From: Fidelibacterota bacterium
Lineage (GTDB): Bacteria > Fidelibacterota > Marinisomatia > Marinisomatales > UBA1611
DNA: 37,603 nucleotides
NCBI GenBank assembly: GCA_018692355.1
Contig: JABHKE010000202.1
Span: 1-37,603 of the forward strand
Direction: 5' to 3'
Part shown: one piece after another, positions 832 to 7,041 of the stretch
Layout: the number at the start of each line of letters is the position of its first letter
Numbering within the stretch: position 1 is the first letter of the stretch
Translations under genes and position numbers: made by a program
Notes under the pieces: generated by a model
What the model was told of the DNA's origin: nothing
Seen by the model: only the letters and a program-made list of their open reading frames with translations
The model's database searches: none

Positions 832-2010
832 TTAATATTTATGTATAGGAGATACCTTAATGTCTATTTCAAATCCAGGAAATATTTCAAATAAATCATC
901 TTCCAATGATTGACAGCATTCTACAATTTGATTTTGAAACATTCCCACTTTAACATTTATTCCAAATAGAATCACTTTGTGATTCTCTGTTTGGACGACA
1001 CGAATATCATGGATATCTGTGATCCGTTCATCTCCACTCCAGTTTTGATCAAGATATGATTGGATCTCCTGCACCAATGGATTCCCTGGTTGTACAGGAT
1101 CCATATGAATGGTGGGTTCAACACCTAATGCACCATGCAACTTGTACTCTACTTCCTCTGAAATATCATGAGCTTCAGCTGTGGATTTATCTGCATCAAT
1201 TTCCACATGAACGCTAATAAACTTGTCATGCCCATAACTGTGAATTGTAATATCATGTGCCCCTAAAACGCCATCTACATTCATGACGATCTGGCGTATG
1301 ACTTCTACTTCTTCAGATGTCGGAGGTTTACCAATGAGGTCATCCACTGCATCTTTCGCTATTTCAAACCCGGTATATATCAAAAACAATGCCACGCCTA
1401 ATCCTGCCCAACCGTCCGAAGATGGGTATCCATATTTCCCGGCAATTAATGCACCTACAACTAACAAACTTGAAAGTGCATCTGTGCGATGATGCCACGC
1501 GTCTGCATGTAGTGTGCCTGATGCAATCTTTATTGAGAGAAATTCCGCATATCTTGCTGTGATTTCTTTCAAAATAATGGTCACCATAAGGGTAAGTATC
1601 ATCCACCATTCAGCTACCACTTGTTCAGGATTTTTAATTCTATCAATGGATGCTTCAATGAATTCGATACCAGCGACACATAACAGAATCGCAATAATCA
1701 ATGTTGCTATGTATTCTGCACGGCCATGACCATAAGGATGCTCAACGTCAGCAGGCTTCTCCGCTTGTTTGAACCCCAAAATCACAACAATCGATGAAAC
1801 AACATCAGATAATGTATGGACAGCATCGGCGATTACACTAACGGCCCCTACCATAACACCAATTACTAATTTAAGAATAAATAAAATGCTGTTTACTAAA
1901 ACGGAAATCCATCCTTGAAAAACTCCAATTTTAGTACGATACATCTTTGCCGATTCTTTTGTGTTGGGGATGAAATAATTGGTGATGGTTTCAAACATAG
2001 AATTAGTCAT
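832..2010 (-). CDS. Cation diffusion facilitator family transporter with duplicated C-terminal domain
   Basis: Inner-membrane divalent metal/proton antiporter of the CDF family (Zn, Fe, Mn or Co efflux; the metal cannot be told from sequence). Metal-site residues are H65/D69 in TM2 (AVHTLSD) and H173/D177 in TM5 (HHRTD), the HxxxD + HxxxD arrangement. Six membrane segments fill about residues 30-225. The usual cytoplasmic dimerisation domain (about 235-310) is followed by a second similar unit (about 320-392, TDIHDIRVVQ... matching AHDITIHSYG...), making it about 90 residues longer than FieF (300 aa). The start codon overlaps the 3' end of the recombinase gene by 8 bases; an alternative start at Met5 would remove the overlap. 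The overlap suggests co-transcription with the recombinase. Confidence 0.92.
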   Translation of the reverse strand: MTNSMFETITNYFIPNTKESAKMYRTKIGVFQGWISVLVNSILFILKLVIGVMVGAVSVIADAVHTLSDVVSSIVVILGFKQAEKPADVEHPYGHGRAEYIATLIIAILLCVAGIEFIEASIDRIKNPEQVVAEWWMILTLMVTIILKEITARYAEFLSIKIASGTLHADAWHHRTDALSSLLVVGALIAGKYGYPSSDGWAGLGVALFLIYTGFEIAKDAVDDLIGKPPTSEEVEVIRQIVMNVDGVLGAHDITIHSYGHDKFISVHVEIDADKSTAEAHDISEEVEYKLHGALGVEPTIHMDPVQPGNPLVQEIQSYLDQNWSGDERITDIHDIRVVQTENHKVILFGINVKVGMFQNQIVECCQSLEDDLFEIFPGFEIDIKVSPIHKY

Positions 2011-2905
2011 TAATTTTAAATCTGTCTAAAGGACTTTTTATTCTTTCAAATGAAATTTTAGAAATATGAGTATAAATCTGAGTTGTTTCCAATCGTTTAT
2101 GCCCTAATAATTCTTGAATGAACCGAATATCTGTTCCATTTTCTAATAAATGGGTGGCAAAGCTATGACGTAATGTATGGACTGTTGCGTGTTTTTTGAT
2201 GCCAGTATTTTTGACAGCTTTTTTCATGATGGATTGAACTGAACTGGCACTATACCTTCCTCCCTTTTGTCCTTCAAATAAATAGTGTTTTGGGTAATAT
2301 ATTTTCAAATATTTTTTTAATACTCCTTTTAACGAAGTGGAGAATACAGAATAACGATCTTTTTTCCTTTTCCCCATTTTTACAATAATCAGGTTTCGAT
2401 CAAAATCAATATCCCAAACCTGAAGTGAGAGAAGTTCATTTAATCGTATTCCGGATGAATATATTGTCATTAAAATAGCTTTATGTTTTAAATTGGTTAC
2501 AGAATTTAAAATTTGAGCAACTTCTGATTCTGAAAGAACAACTGGTATTTTTTCTTCTTTTCGAAATCGAATATTTAAAGCCGGTGGAATTTCTCTTTTT
2601 AATATATCAGAGAAAATAAATTTTAAAGCTGCAACCGTTTGCTTCATGGATGAAATAGATCGCTTTTTATTTCTTTTTAAATCATATAAATAATTTTCCA
2701 CAATTCTATCTGTCACTTTTGTAATTTTTTCACTGATAAGCCATTTTGAAAAATGATTTATAGCCGACAAATATGAACCAACGGTACGATCGCTATAATT
2801 ACGAATGATAAGTTTTTGTTTGGCGGTATTTAATAAGTCGGCTTTTAACATAACAATGCGGTTAAAACACAATATTATATTAAAGAGTAAACCCGCTAAA
2901 CGCAA
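2003..2905 (-). CDS. Tyrosine recombinase (XerC/D-like, integron-associated type)
   Basis: Site-specific recombinase of the phage-integrase/Xer family. N-terminal SAM-like DNA-binding domain (about 25-105), then a catalytic domain with R154 (SGIRLNE), a lysine near 179, H243xxR246 (HTLRHSFATHLLENG), H269 (LLGHK) and nucleophile Y278 (QIYTH). It ends in SPLD, as do IntI integrases, but lacks the extra helical insert that defines true IntI between the lysine and HxxR. The longest reading starts at a TTG (2905) inside a 25-bp palindrome; an ATG at 2851 giving 282 residues (MLKADLLNTAK) is more natural. It lies immediately beside attC-like sites and cassette genes transcribed the other way, the arrangement expected of an integron recombinase. 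Its 3' end overlaps the transporter gene. Confidence 0.9.
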   Translation of the reverse strand: MRLAGLLFNIILCFNRIVMLKADLLNTAKQKLIIRNYSDRTVGSYLSAINHFSKWLISEKITKVTDRIVENYLYDLKRNKKRSISSMKQTVAALKFIFSDILKREIPPALNIRFRKEEKIPVVLSESEVAQILNSVTNLKHKAILMTIYSSGIRLNELLSLQVWDIDFDRNLIIVKMGKRKKDRYSVFSTSLKGVLKKYLKIYYPKHYLFEGQKGGRYSASSVQSIMKKAVKNTGIKKHATVHTLRHSFATHLLENGTDIRFIQELLGHKRLETTQIYTHISKISFERIKSPLDRFKIND

Positions 2906-2934
2906 TAATTGTGTTTAGCAAGACGTTGTGCAAC
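2895..2934. other. attI-like palindromic site beside the recombinase
   Basis: Bases 2895-2919 form a near-perfect palindrome (GCTAAACGCAAT / A / TTGTGTTTAGC-type arms, one mismatch). It is followed at 2925-2931 by GTTGTGC, which resembles an integron R' core (GTTRRRY-like) and is mirrored by GCACAAC at 3474-3480 after the first cassette gene. The same arms plus the CAAGAC flank recur in the longer palindrome at 3747-3791. Its location between the divergent recombinase and first cassette is that of an attI, which is an inference from layout and sequence only. Confidence 0.5.
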
Positions 2935-2961
2935 ATATCCGAGCAATACCCTGAAAATAAA

Positions 2962-3462
2962 ATGAAAGTACTCAATGTCCATAAGCGAATAATAAATCAG
3001 CCGAAAAATGAAGTGTCGGAAATATTAAAAACACTGGCAACTGAAAATGATAAAATTTGGCCAAAAGAAAAATGGCCACAAATGAAATTTAAAGATGGAA
3101 TCAAAATTGGAGCAAAAGGCGGACACGGACCAATAAGATATTTAGTAGAAGAATATAATCCGAATGAAATAATTCAATTCAGATTCTTAAAACCCAATGG
3201 GTTTAATGGAATTCATAAGTTCGAGATAAATGAACTCTCGAAAGAAAAAACCGAAATAAAACATACGCTTGATATGAATACTGTTGGGAAAGGAACATTA
3301 ATATGGATTTTCGGGATTCGTTCTTTACACAATGCTTTAATCGAAGATGGATTAGATAAACTTGAAAATGACTTCCTTGAAAATAAAAAATTGTCCAAAT
3401 GGAACTTTTGGTTGAGATTTTTAAGGAAACAAATGGCGAAAAGGAAAAATAAACCGAATTAA
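2962..3462 (+). CDS. SRPBCC family protein (first cassette gene)
   Basis: A 166-residue cytosolic protein of the START/Bet v1-like SRPBCC superfamily, hydrophobic-cavity proteins of varied function. Support is the overall pattern: an opening beta strand (VHKRIINQPKNEV), a central GGHGPIRYLVEEYNPNEIIQF strand pair, FNGIHKFEINEL, and a long C-terminal helix ending in a lysine-rich tail. No catalytic residue can be assigned. The ATG at 2962 is chosen; an upstream GTG at 2911 falls inside the palindrome. It sits between an attI-like site and an attC-like site, so it reads as a mobile gene cassette, with AAAT-rich codon use typical of such cassettes. Confidence 0.7.
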   Translation: MKVLNVHKRIINQPKNEVSEILKTLATENDKIWPKEKWPQMKFKDGIKIGAKGGHGPIRYLVEEYNPNEIIQFRFLKPNGFNGIHKFEINELSKEKTEIKHTLDMNTVGKGTLIWIFGIRSLHNALIEDGLDKLENDFLENKKLSKWNFWLRFLRKQMAKRKNKPN

Positions 3463-3473
3463 TAAAATACGTT

Positions 3474-3604
3474 GCACAACAATGGCTATAAGTAATTGCT
3501 TGTTCTCGCCTACTTCTGAAAATCCGCGAGGATTTTCAGTTGGGTGTGTACTTGCAAAAGTTCGTGCTAAACCACGCAACTACTCATAGCCGATACCGTT
3601 GTGA
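3474..3604. repeat. attC-like recombination site after cassette 1
   Basis: About 131 bases with attC architecture. The outer core GCACAAC (3474-3480) pairs with GTTGTGA (3598-3604). Inner arms GGCTATAAGTA (3484-3494) and TACTCATAGCC (3581-3591) pair 10 of 11. The middle holds a perfect 10-bp hairpin (CTGAAAATCC at 3516-3525, GGATTTTCAG at 3530-3539). Integron attC sites fold as single strands in this way; the R' core GTTGTGA departs from the classical GTTRRRY consensus. Confidence reflects structure seen directly and function inferred. Confidence 0.65.
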
Positions 3605-3629
3605 GTTATTAATAAAAAAAAGTGATCAG

Positions 3630-3725
3630 ATGAAAAATAATCTAAGTAAAGACTGGGTAAAGTACGAAGCCTACAGCAGCTCCGCATCTTCCAAAACTCG
3701 TCATCGAGTTGCACTTAAGAGTTGA
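3630..3725 (+). pseudogene. Short cassette gene remnant (31 codons)
   Basis: After the first attC-like site an ATG opens a 31-codon frame (MKNNLSKDWVKYEAYSS...) that stops just before the large palindrome at 3747. The first ten codons look like a genuine gene start; the rest is serine/arginine-rich and resembles nothing I recognise. The most likely reading is the 5' stump of a second cassette gene cut off by the palindrome/hairpin element, but it could also be non-coding. Confidence 0.3.
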
Positions 3726-3746
3726 ATTCAAGCAGTATAATATTAA

Positions 3747-3791
3747 TGAATGTCTTGCTAAACACAATAATTGTGTTTAGCAAGACATTCA
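3747..3791. repeat. 45-bp near-perfect palindrome
   Basis: Two 22-base arms (left arm begins TGAATGTCTTGC, right arm ends GCAAGACATTCA) are exact reverse complements around a single central A. The core, GCTAAACACAAT and its complement, also occurs at the recombinase-proximal site 2895-2919. It would form a cruciform in DNA or a 22-bp hairpin in RNA. There is no T-tract after it on either strand, so it is not a normal terminator. Its shared core with the recombinase site suggests a recombination site or a dimerised copy of that site. Confidence 0.85.
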
Positions 3792-3829
3792 GCCGCAATC
3801 CGCTTCGCTTCTTGCGAATGAATGTGGTG

Positions 3830-3891
3830 CGCCGGGCGCTGCCCTTCTTGTCCGCAAAGCGGACGGCGAAGAACAGCGCTGTAAAATCAAT
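3830..3891. repeat. 62-bp structured repeat, copy 1
   Basis: Direct repeat of 5286-5347 with two mismatches. It folds into nested stems GCGCTG/CAGCGC, then CTTC/GAAG, then GTCCGC-AAA-GCGGAC. It is much more GC-rich than its surroundings. The 12-mer AATGTGGTGCGC at 3821-3832 overlaps its left edge; the exact inverse GCGCACCACATT is at 5386-5397, after copy 2. Copy 1 therefore keeps a left end and copy 2 a right end of what looks like one small mobile element. Confidence 0.75.
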
Positions 3892-3892
3892 C

Positions 3893-4222
3893 CCCATTTA
3901 TGAAAAATTAGGGCTAAAATTGATTGTGAAATCTCTTCCTTATTACGCACGATTTGAATGCCTTAATGGAAACTCAACTTTTTCAATTCATCAAACGGAG
4001 ATATTGCCAAAAGGAGATGGAATATATGTTTACTTTGAATGTGAAAATCTAGGCGAACAAGTTGAAAATTTAAAAGAAAACGGAATTAAGTTTGAACAAG
4101 AACCAACTGACCAAAATTGGTTGTGGAAAGAAACACAATGAAAAGATGTTGACGGAAATCAACTGATATTATTTTATGGTGGAGAAAACAGATTAAATCC
4201 ACCTTGGAGAATAAATAGTTGA
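3893..4222 (+). pseudogene. VOC (glyoxalase/bleomycin-resistance) protein remnant
   Basis: Reading from 3893 gives a recognisable VOC-superfamily domain (YEKLGLKLIV, ARFECLNGNSTFSIHQ, GIYVYFECENL, then DVDGNQLILFYGGENR, NPPWRIN). Two lesions are visible. The first beta strand and the start codon are missing and replaced by the 62-bp repeat. An in-frame TGA at 4139-4141 interrupts the C-terminal third, where relatives usually have an arginine codon, so CGA to TGA is the simple explanation. Downstream codons remain in frame to the natural stop at 4220-4222, so the decay is recent. Confidence 0.8.
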
Positions 4223-4244
4223 GCAGTATGTATAATAATAAACT

Positions 4245-4440
4245 ACACACAACACTGTATATAGCAAATAGGGCGTTCTGAGGTTTACGAAAGGTCAGCG
4301 CTATTTACAAACACCGCCACATCGTTGATTTGGCTTTTTAGAATGAATAAATTAAAAACCAAATATAAACTCTTGGCTTCGTGCAGATTTGAAACTTTCA
4401 GCTTTCAAACCCCGCACTACGCATAGCCGGGTCGTTAGCG
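4245..4440. repeat. Hybrid attC-like region before the methyltransferase cassette
   Basis: The left part starts with an attC-like half (CACAACACTGTATATAGC from about 4246). The right part ends with another (CACTACGCATAGCC, then CGTTAGCG at 4433-4440). The two halves do not pair with each other, whereas each resembles half of a different attC type. A short hairpin (TTTGAAA / TTTCAAA) lies at about 4388-4409. The likely origin is recombination or deletion joining two unlike sites. CGTTAGCG is mirrored by CGCTAAC at 5240, as expected for the two ends of one cassette. Confidence 0.5.
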
Positions 4441-4451
4441 AAAATAAAACT

Positions 4452-5255
4452 ATGATGAAACAATCAATTGTTAATATTGGAAAAAGAGTAATTCCCCAGA
4501 ATATCAGGGTTTTCTTCAGAAAACTCAATTGGAAATGCCATTATCTATTACAATCAGCCATGATTAATTCCTCGGAGAAAAAAGTGTATTGTCCAATAGC
4601 GAAAAAAGAGTTCAAAAAATTTGTGAACATTGGAAATGATTTAATAACTCCATCAAATGGTGCAAGAGGAAGACAAAGGTTAGTATGGCATTATTTGGAG
4701 AATAAAATAAAAATTCTAGAAAATGAAATAAGAATACTCCATACGGCTCCTGAACTTTCATACTTTGAGGTACTTAGTAAACTAAAAAATATAGATTACG
4801 TGCCTGGTGACAAAATGGCCGCAGGATACTCAAATCAAAAAGGAATTCTAAATATTGATTTAACTAATCTAGAATTTGATGATTGTAGTTTTGATTATTT
4901 TCTCTCTAACCATGTGCTAGAGCATATACCTAATGATAGAAAAGCAATGTCCGAAATTTTCCGAGTATTGAAAGAAGGAGGAGTTGCGGTGATTACTGTT
5001 CCAATAAATGAGAAGCTGGATAAAACTTATGAAGATCCAACAATTGTTACACCTAGAGATAGAAAAAAGCATTTTGGACAATGGGATCACGTAAGATGGT
5101 ATGGTTTAGATATTAAAAATAAATTAGAAAAAATAGGTTTTAGAGTAAAAATGCTTAAATATGGGGAGCAGTTTTCAAAAAAAGATTTTCAAAGATACGG
5201 TTTCAAGAATGATTTTATTGTGGAAGCACAGAAACCTTTCGCTAACAAGGTATAA
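4452..5255 (+). CDS. Class I SAM-dependent methyltransferase (cassette gene)
   Basis: A 267-residue protein with the Methyltransf_11 pattern: NIDLTNLEFDD (acidic residue after beta2/beta3), FDYFLSNHVLEHIPND and AMSEIFRVLKEGGVAVITVP (beta4, helix and beta5). The canonical glycine loop is weak. The N-terminal ~90 residues contain two lone cysteines but no zinc ribbon. The substrate is unknown; similar proteins occur in surface-glycan clusters and in gene cassettes. ATG ATG at 4452/4455 follows the cassette boundary CGTTAGCG by about 12 bases. The stop TAA at 5253-5255 lies inside the left arm of the following attC-like site, so the last residues are encoded by the site itself, a classic cassette feature. 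Confidence 0.82.
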   Translation: MMKQSIVNIGKRVIPQNIRVFFRKLNWKCHYLLQSAMINSSEKKVYCPIAKKEFKKFVNIGNDLITPSNGARGRQRLVWHYLENKIKILENEIRILHTAPELSYFEVLSKLKNIDYVPGDKMAAGYSNQKGILNIDLTNLEFDDCSFDYFLSNHVLEHIPNDRKAMSEIFRVLKEGGVAVITVPINEKLDKTYEDPTIVTPRDRKKHFGQWDHVRWYGLDIKNKLEKIGFRVKMLKYGEQFSKKDFQRYGFKNDFIVEAQKPFANKV

Positions 5256-5286
5256 GTGGCATTAAAACGACCGCTTATACTAGACC
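5240..5286. repeat. Truncated attC-like site after the methyltransferase
   Basis: CGCTAAC (5240-5246) is followed by the arm GTATAAGTGG (5250-5259), an 11-base loop, and CCGCTTATAC (5271-5280), pairing 9 of 10 with a possible G-T wobble. The expected partner core CGTTAGCG after the right arm is missing: the sequence runs ACCG and then into the 62-bp repeat at 5286. The site seems to have lost its R' end to that repeat. Confidence 0.6.
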
Positions 5287-5397
5287 GCTGGGCGCTGCTC
5301 TTCTTGTCCGCAAAGCGGACGGCGAAGAACAGCGCTGTAAAATCAATAGAATTATTGAGAATACTTAAATTCTACTGCCTTTACAGCGCACCACATT
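5286..5397. repeat. 62-bp structured repeat copy 2 with right-hand terminal inverted repeat
   Basis: Bases 5286-5347 repeat 3830-3891 (two mismatches). They continue into a second hairpin whose arms GCGCTGTAAA (5332-5341) and TTTACAGCGC (5380-5389) are exact complements. It ends with GCGCACCACATT (5386-5397), the exact inverse of the 12-mer at 3821-3832. Joining 3821-3891 to 5348-5397 at the shared repeat would rebuild an element of about 120 bases with 12-bp terminal inverted repeats and no coding capacity. Confidence 0.7.
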
Positions 5398-5424
5398 AGA
5401 ACAAAATGGAGAAATAGTTCTATC

Positions 5425-6375
5425 TTAAATCATCCCATTAATTTTATGCAGTTTATTCACCCCGCCCCGAGCTAAAGCATATTCAAATGACCATTTAAGA
5501 CAGGCGGAACCAATCTGTCCATCCTTCCGTATTGCGATATACCCAATTTGAAAATCCGGCGTTCCATTATGAGCTTTAATAATACGATTTAGCGCTTCTT
5601 CGCAAGCCACTGTGGGGTCATATCCTTGTCTCATCAGTTCCACCACAAGAAAACTGCCTGTGGTTTTAATCACTTCTTCTCCTAGCCCTGTGGCAGCGGC
5701 ACAGCCGATCTCATTATCCACAAAAAGTCCTGCACCAATAATGGGGCTATCTCCCACCCTACCATGTAATTTATAAGCCCAACCGCTGGTTGTGCATGCA
5801 CCGGCAAAATCACCATTCTTATCCTGCACTAAAACAGAGATTGTGTCGTGGGTCTCATGAGGTGTCATTTCCCGGCGGTTCTTTTCCCATTCTTCCCAAG
5901 CCTGCCGAGATTCAACCGTGAGAAGATCCATTTCTTCGAATCCCAGAGATACTGCGAACTGCCGCGCCCCTTCCCCAACCAACATTACATGCTTGGTATC
6001 TTCCATCACTTTTCGAGCCACAGAAACAGGATGTTTGATATTTTGTAAAAATGCCACGGAACCGGCATTCCCACTGGAATCCATAACACATGCATCCAAA
6101 GTAACATTACCCTGCTCATCAGGCAGCCCGCCAAAACCTACAGACGTAATGGTTGGGTCAGCTTCGGTAACACGTGCACCCGCTTCTGCTGCATCCATGG
6201 CATTCCCACCATTCACTAAAGTTTCCCACGCAGCATCATTCGCTGGCAAGCCATGGTTATATGTGGAAAGAATGATTGGATTATTTTTATTTGCAATAAT
6301 ATTTGAATCTCCAAAAATGGCAGAAGGTGCTGTAATCCCAATTGCGCCCGTCTTTAAAAAATCTCTGCGTTTCAT
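5425..6375 (-). CDS. Isoaspartyl peptidase / N4-(beta-N-acetylglucosaminyl)-asparaginase family protein
   Basis: Ntn-hydrolase of the asparaginase-2/glycosylasparaginase family, made as a precursor and activated by self-cleavage before a threonine. The nucleophile is T178 in HETHDTISVL; the sequence GRVGDSPIIGAG and the C-terminal TGLGE motif are the family's substrate and oxyanion regions. Residues 1-25 (MKRRDFLKTGAIGITAPSAIFG) form an RR-containing, Tat-like signal, so the enzyme is probably periplasmic. ATG at 6375 is chosen over the TTG at 6378; AGGGAT lies about 12 bases upstream. Aspartylglucosaminidase (EC 3.5.1.26) is the best match. The substrate is probably glycan-asparagine or isoaspartyl peptide debris. 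Confidence 0.88.
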   Translation of the reverse strand: MKRRDFLKTGAIGITAPSAIFGDSNIIANKNNPIILSTYNHGLPANDAAWETLVNGGNAMDAAEAGARVTEADPTITSVGFGGLPDEQGNVTLDACVMDSSGNAGSVAFLQNIKHPVSVARKVMEDTKHVMLVGEGARQFAVSLGFEEMDLLTVESRQAWEEWEKNRREMTPHETHDTISVLVQDKNGDFAGACTTSGWAYKLHGRVGDSPIIGAGLFVDNEIGCAAATGLGEEVIKTTGSFLVVELMRQGYDPTVACEEALNRIIKAHNGTPDFQIGYIAIRKDGQIGSACLKWSFEYALARGGVNKLHKINGMI

Positions 6376-6532
6376 CAAATTATAATCCCTATTTGTTCAA
6401 GGATGAAATTTATAAAGAAAAAATCGAAGAAACACAGTTTGGCAATGTCTTTACGAAAAAATTAATTGCGAATCGTAGACAAGCACATTTCATCACAAAT
6501 CTAATCACTTCTAACATTTAGCATATTGTGAT

Positions 6533-7002: not shown

Positions 7003-7041
7003 AAAAAGATGTTTTATATCTATAAAACATCTTTTTTCTTT
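7003..7041. terminator. Bidirectional terminator overlapping a coding 3' end
   Basis: A perfect 16-bp stem (AAAAAGATGTTTTATA at 7003-7018, its complement at 7021-7036) with a 2-base loop has an A-tract on the left and T-tract on the right, so it can stop both convergent transcripts. The stop codon and last six codons of the phosphoesterase (KKDVL) lie in the right arm. Confidence 0.85.

Follow-up and report, generated by a model that had tools for sequence, protein, structure and literature searches.

Organization of the locus

The window (the whole stretch of DNA analysed here, 37,603 nucleotides) contains a tyrosine recombinase gene and, on the opposite strand, a series of elements laid out like an integron platform with its attached cassettes, among which lie the end of an insertion sequence and a perfect 45-bp palindrome. 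The features are as follows, in positions of the window.

2003..2851, minus strand: tyrosine recombinase, 282 aa (Pfam Phage_integrase and Phage_int_SAM_4; NCBIfam NF040815)
2857..2931, plus strand: attI1, dyad 2895-2919, core GTT 2925-2927 (R1 match; relatives keep the site upstream of their integrase)
2962..3462, plus strand: cassette 1 ORF, 166 aa
3474..3604, plus strand: attC1, whose R'' GCACAAC exactly inverts the attI1 core GTTGTGC (attC finder score 17.6)
3654..3732, minus strand: terminal remnant of a presumably IS30-like insertion sequence, with its terminus GAATTCAAG at 3732
3733..3789, plus strand: attI2 (site 2), a putative left-truncated and symmetrised attI (R1 match, left flank)
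3747..3791, no strand: 45-bp perfect palindrome
3788..3891, plus strand: element E1, ORF-less, hairpin-rich, array-associated, 3' end missing (89% to the E element of locus L118)
3902..4222, plus strand: broken cassette ORF, start absent, one in-frame TGA
4247..4440, plus strand: candidate attC2, ACACAAC ... GTTAGCG (by eye; missed by the attC finder)
4454..5255, plus strand: methyltransferase cassette ORF (listed frame 4389-5255; Methyltransf_11, 1e-12)
5240..5293, plus strand: attC3, CGCTAAC ... GCTGGGC, with altered R' (finder score 13.6, looser threshold 13)
5286..5397, plus strand: element E2, 5' end missing (92% to the L118 E element)

The first attachment site, attI1, directly abuts the integrase gene, an arrangement that is repeated in relatives, and it is matched at 2857-2928 with 80.7 bits by R1, a model of 18 attI sites that excludes site 2 and has attI1 itself among its members. 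An attC hairpin is clear in attC1, where it is imperfect (folding z of -3.6 and -5.6), is present with an altered R' in attC3, and is discerned by eye only in attC2. Neither Pfam nor NCBIfam matched the longer frame around the cassette 1 ORF (2911-3462), and Pfam gave nothing for the longer frame of the broken ORF at 3902-4222, which we take to resemble a glyoxalase/VOC-type protein. The methyltransferase cassette (4389-5255) has a weak PADLOC match to mad2 (3e-5), which probably reflects the general methyltransferase fold.

Elements E1 and E2 have 62 nt in common, and matches to element E occur in 8 of 245 genomes; copies directly follow an attI in locus L117 (1-140) and an attC in L118 (1500-1654) and L119 (920-1017). 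The termini of the element resemble attC with the core AAT/ATT replacing AAC/GTT. The insertion sequence remnant at 3654-3732, for which we give the strand of the transposase in intact copies, has two more copies in the same genome and matches in 38 of the 245 genomes, some of those matches being short or lying elsewhere in the query. Next to intact copies is a transposase with HTH_38 and rve domains. The IS30 family shares this combination, and we call the element IS30-like; unlike a full member, the window retains only an end of ~80 nt.

The palindrome

The arms of the palindrome (3747-3768 and 3770-3791) are 22 nt long and 100% complementary around a one-base centre, 45 bp in total. A preliminary description of this DNA, made from the letters alone, had judged such arms improbable by chance, and the statistics agree: 60 first-order Markov sequences as long as the window had longest perfect arms (spacer up to 10) of 8-11, and palindromes with arms of at least 22 have an expected number of 7.7e-8. 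Single-strand folding of 3735-3840 gives z = -10.1 on the plus strand and -8.3 on the minus strand. The palindrome is confirmed as real and far above chance. Its core was said to recur beside the recombinase with one change, and it does so at 2895-2919, in a match that extends to 2927 (33 nt, 94%); a search of the window's own assembly (2.05 Mb, 215 contigs) found no third similar place beyond 2895-2927 and the palindrome itself.

Two other identities were considered for the palindrome and rejected. An intrinsic terminator is ruled out by the A+T-rich stem, by the lack of a T run 3' of the palindrome, which the preliminary description had already pointed out, and by the absence of Rfam matches in 1900-6500. 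A phage or viral site was the other: the exact pattern occurs in 10 stretches of viral contigs, by eye mostly similar to a single repeated coding-like stretch, of which none has a recombinase match and one has a weak R1-like match. The second strong palindrome of the window, at 7003-7036, has 17-base arms and a T-rich end and is probably a terminator.

A recombinase lacking the integron-specific insert

The recombinase scores above the NCBIfam cut-off for NF040815 and below that for TIGR02249, which it matches in two pieces. Its best PDB sequence match is the integron integrase structure 2a3v, also aligned in two pieces, relative to which the protein is about 40 residues shorter between query positions 187 and 204. 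The distance from the GxRxxE to the HxLRH motif is 91 residues in all 20 loci of the close clade (L034-L053) and 132-134 in 13 insert-bearing relatives, the pattern having measured 13 of 17 such relatives correctly and failed in 4. In a tree of 74 rows, which omits two rows of short integrases as well as four stop-containing Xer rows, 21 short integrases fall on one side of a branch (100/100) and 17 insert-bearing ones on another (100/100). The short clade spans Neomarinimicrobiota, Calditrichota, Ignavibacteriota, Bacteroidota and Gammaproteobacteria, and the closest relatives of the window's enzyme are from Neomarinimicrobiota (formerly Marinimicrobia). Insert-bearing integrases are present in that phylum too (matches in two pieces); where a listed genome carries such an integrase together with R1 sites, the R1 sites are on separate contigs. 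The AlphaFold model of the recombinase (mean pLDDT 82, pTM 0.64, domain placement unsure) has XerA 5hxy as its first structural match and 2a3v next.

The protein therefore combines traits of two known groups. Like IntI (TIGR02249; VchIntIA structure 2a3v), it has 2a3v as best PDB match, an SPLD-type C terminus and the IntI fold among its top structural matches; unlike IntI, it is missing the catalytic-domain insert and its top structural match is XerA. XerA-type recombinases (NF040815) share with it the absent insert and the NCBIfam score above cut-off, but the window's enzyme is linked to attI and attC cassettes instead of a dif site. Messier and Roy reportedly held, to judge by the title of their 2001 paper, that the extra domain is necessary for integron integrases. 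This domain is described as separating integron integrases from other recombinases (in passages of PMC9024848). Because the IntI-specific insert is absent, we class the recombinase as a relative of integron integrases, not as a canonical IntI. The platform resembles an integron in every sequence feature examined, although its protein fails the usual definition of IntI.

A family of quasi-palindromic attI sites

Beside the integrase, the attI of this lineage consists of GGTTAAAAC, a spacer, the dyad CCCGCTAAACgCAATaATTGkGTTTAGC, the bases AAGAC and the core GTT, and this layout is conserved at the same place beside the integrase in relatives; in Neomarinimicrobiota 43 nt separate the end of the dyad from the start of the integrase. 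The attI1 of known integrons has L and R boxes and the direct repeats DR1 and DR2 (as set out in parts of PMC12901181), and the sites described here are like known ones in lying beside the integrase gene, in the core GTTnnnn, in the upstream repeats and in insertion at G|TT. They differ in having a conserved quasi-palindrome as their upstream part, whereas the title of a 1997 paper, cited in PMC4792948, terms attI 'non-palindromic'. In 17 of 18 attI the dyad retains a position that does not pair, usually G/G or G/T, the exception being the solo site L127/L183. Across phyla, the anchored dyads of integrase-linked attI (L036 mis-anchored, L046 not placed) pair at 8.5 of 12 positions as against 7.5 with swapped arms, a small difference; an unanchored search gave 9.7 against 4.1, figures to which we give no weight, since selecting the best place biases them and several loci were misplaced, and shuffling gave p > 0.1 in 12 of 24 rows.

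R1 matches (E <= 0.01) were found in 40 of the 245 genomes and the short integrase (E <= 1e-45) in 37. Both occur together in 19 genomes against 6.0 expected (hypergeometric p 4e-8, uncorrected for kinship), a strong overlap. The scattering without regard to the recombinase that the preliminary description had named as a refutation is absent from the window's own genome, which has two sites only; among relatives integrase-less copies are common. Some genomes have many R1 sites, G042 at nine places and G126 at eight, second-strand rows and one weak row left uncounted; since most sites in multi-site genomes have no integrase within 400 nt, and some have integrase fragments only, solo attI of this family exist in several genomes.

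Several solo attI share an upstream block of at least 100 nt that is genus-specific, as at 3709, 8606, 9905 and 13131 of L161 (G042:C125), and conserved upstream blocks also precede the solo sites of L168, L171, L173, L177 and L186; this block is perhaps a promoter-bearing platform. In L122 and L123 (G131:C48 and G138:C51) the left neighbour of an integrase-less attI resembles the cation-efflux gene next to the window's integrase, which looks like loss of the integrase at the same chromosomal place.

If cassettes enter at these sites as in known integrons, the first cassette is expected to have the attI core GTTnnnn, reverse-complemented, as its R'' box. Each site was tested for the exact 7-mer at a distance of 150-3000 nt, followed by GTT 45-200 nt further. 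The window passes, with GTTGTGC at attI1 and GCACAAC at the start of attC1. Among integrase-linked loci, of which 15 were examined and 13 have an array of at least 700 nt (two under 250 nt were dropped, one of them also mis-anchored), 9 of 13 are positive, against 11% with swapped cores (455 tests). Loci with integrase fragments gave 1 of 2. For solo attI (29 examined, 2 with short arrays dropped) the result is 8 of 27 against 9.1% with swapped cores (976 tests), a few of the 8 showing no attC-like continuation by eye (L176, L180). The rows share common ancestry and are therefore not independent trials. With the inverted attI core recurring at cassette ends, cassettes appear to be joined at G|TT, like those of known integrons. 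In 10 relatives, 12 attC candidates fall on the array side (54.3 kb) and 2 on the other side (42.9 kb), against 1.3 per array side after shuffling, and five of these ten loci have no candidate. The working landing site for cassettes is most likely attI1.

Site 2 as a truncated attI

The preliminary description had taken the palindrome for a recombination site or a dimerised attI-like site. An attI-like recombination site stands: R1, from which site 2 was left out, matches it on the plus strand at 3732-3789 (model 14-72, 38.8 bits, E 1.8e-9), over flank and dyad, and by the junction test the adjacent recombinase's attI is a point of cassette insertion. The dimer is not supported. On the minus strand R1 matches model positions 37-72 only, with 31.2 bits (7.6 bits fewer); the plus-strand flank, short and AT-rich as it is, scores 10.2 bits as an attI left flank, a value that 0.05% of all window positions attain, or 0.18% when AT-rich positions alone are counted, and the opposite flank scores at chance. 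These flank scores speak against a dimer; site 2 reads as one attI in plus orientation whose left arm has been mirrored.

The core of site 2 is ATT in place of GTT, for which reason we call the site attI-derived, and no integrase match was found near 3733-3789. The terminus GAATTCAAG of the insertion sequence is identical in all nine loci compared, with different sequence outside it, and in the window it ends at 3732; as attI homology starts at 3733, attI2 begins at the IS end and the outer GGTTAAAAC repeat is absent. The R1 match and the junction test support descent of the palindrome from the neighbouring recombinase's attI, as a second attI in one copy and plus orientation. With its ATT core, lost outer repeat and lost asymmetry of the left arm, attI2 is probably a relic that would recombine poorly or not at all; the array 3' of it is decaying, the neighbouring cassette ORF being broken. 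Some other solo attI also carry non-GTT cores, so the ATT core may be tolerated.

Origin of the perfect symmetry

Site 2 has an A-T pair at the dyad position that does not pair in other attI, and its left arm, TGAATGTCTTGCTAAACACAAT, is along its whole length a mirror of the right arm, to which the first bases of E1 belong. Among 53 distinct sites its perfect arms, at 22, are the longest, followed by 15 (L045), 12 (L183) and 8 (L162), the other 49 having 6 or fewer. Template switching at quasipalindromes is known in E. coli (passages of PMC7202029), and it can turn an imperfect inverted repeat into a perfect one (PMC7202029 and PMC3820800, likewise in part). The site 2 arms are the product expected from such a switch, an event we infer from its outcome; they resemble the known mutations in that an imperfect inverted repeat became perfect, and differ from them in the 22-base arms and in their place at a recombination site. 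Intermediate forms of site 2 did not turn up.

In the account that we favour, the ordinary attI is a landing site at which the integrase would join cassettes at G|TT. An IS30-like element may have landed in, or recombined beside, an attI lacking an integrase of its own, leaving its end at 3732 and removing the outer repeat. A later switch of replication template at the quasi-palindrome would have copied the right arm and the first bases of E1 over the left arm, giving the 22-base perfect arms. The palindrome is then the core of a second attI, some 0.8 kb downstream of the integrase gene and the first attI; it would have been cut by an insertion sequence and symmetrised by a template switch, and is probably a relic. 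We give this reading a probability of roughly 0.7.

Could the symmetry instead be functional, with mirrored right halves presenting two outward cores so that cassettes are inserted or inverted on both sides? Both arms do bear the natural right-arm sequence up to GAC, and an ORF-less element adjoins the right side, but the core is ATT on both sides, the IS end replaces the outer attI repeat, the next cassette is broken, and the left side holds the IS remnant with no cassette junction; we regard a functional symmetric attI as unlikely. Somewhat less likely again is that the dyad chiefly serves to bind a regulator, or the integrase in autoregulation, with site 2 a spare operator. In Neomarinimicrobiota its position, ending 43 nt short of the integrase gene, is a possible place for an operator; against this, the dyad always adjoins a cassette core, which follows the cassette rule, and solo copies distant from any integrase stand before cassettes.

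That aberrant transposition by the insertion sequence, not a replication template switch, made the mirrored left arm is a slim prospect. The IS end lies just 14 nt from the palindrome, but the attI-like stretch 3733-3746 separates the two, none of nine other IS ends compared has such a mirror, and L183, with 12-base perfect arms and no IS seen alongside, is a partial counter-example. Slimmer still is an assembly fold-back artefact: these can produce perfect inverted repeats, but this one is only 45 bp, its flanks differ and run into the IS end on the left and the E element on the right, and its core is present as attI in other genomes. Template switching at an IS-cut attI remains our preferred account.

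Relation to known integrons

Integrons, attI and attC are already known; what appears to be new is a platform with an insert-less integrase and numerous solo attI. Attachment site pieces in cassettes and integrase-less arrays have been described (parts of PMC12901181 and PMC9668308), and the locus resembles DattI cassettes, CALINs and In0 elements in having an attI-derived site inside an array and cassettes without a nearby integrase. It differs from CALINs, which have no attI, in that a whole attI stands alone here, in several copies per genome, and from DattI cassettes, in which a piece of attI replaces attC, in that the solo attI is whole. Outside preprints and most subscription journals, the literature yielded no platform run by a domain-less integrase and no numerous solo attI; four papers matched integrons together with Marinimicrobia, none of them by its title on integrons of this phylum.

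There is perhaps an even chance that these loci represent a class of integrons that is widespread, spans at least five phyla and has gone largely unrecognised, with insert-less integrases, quasi-palindromic attI and, in some genomes, several attI dispersed over the chromosome and served in trans by a single integrase, the palindrome of the window being one such site frozen by symmetrisation. An insert-less clade at attI with matching cassette ends would allow the role of the extra domain to be tested directly, and it would mean that surveys requiring the domain overlook platforms. The conserved quasi-palindromic attI, accidentally made perfect here, would amount to a natural experiment on the need for asymmetry in attI. 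Upstream of the short integrase of L044 (Melioribacteraceae) lies an array of seven regularly built attC candidates, and this locus is a better model for short-integrase integrons than the window.
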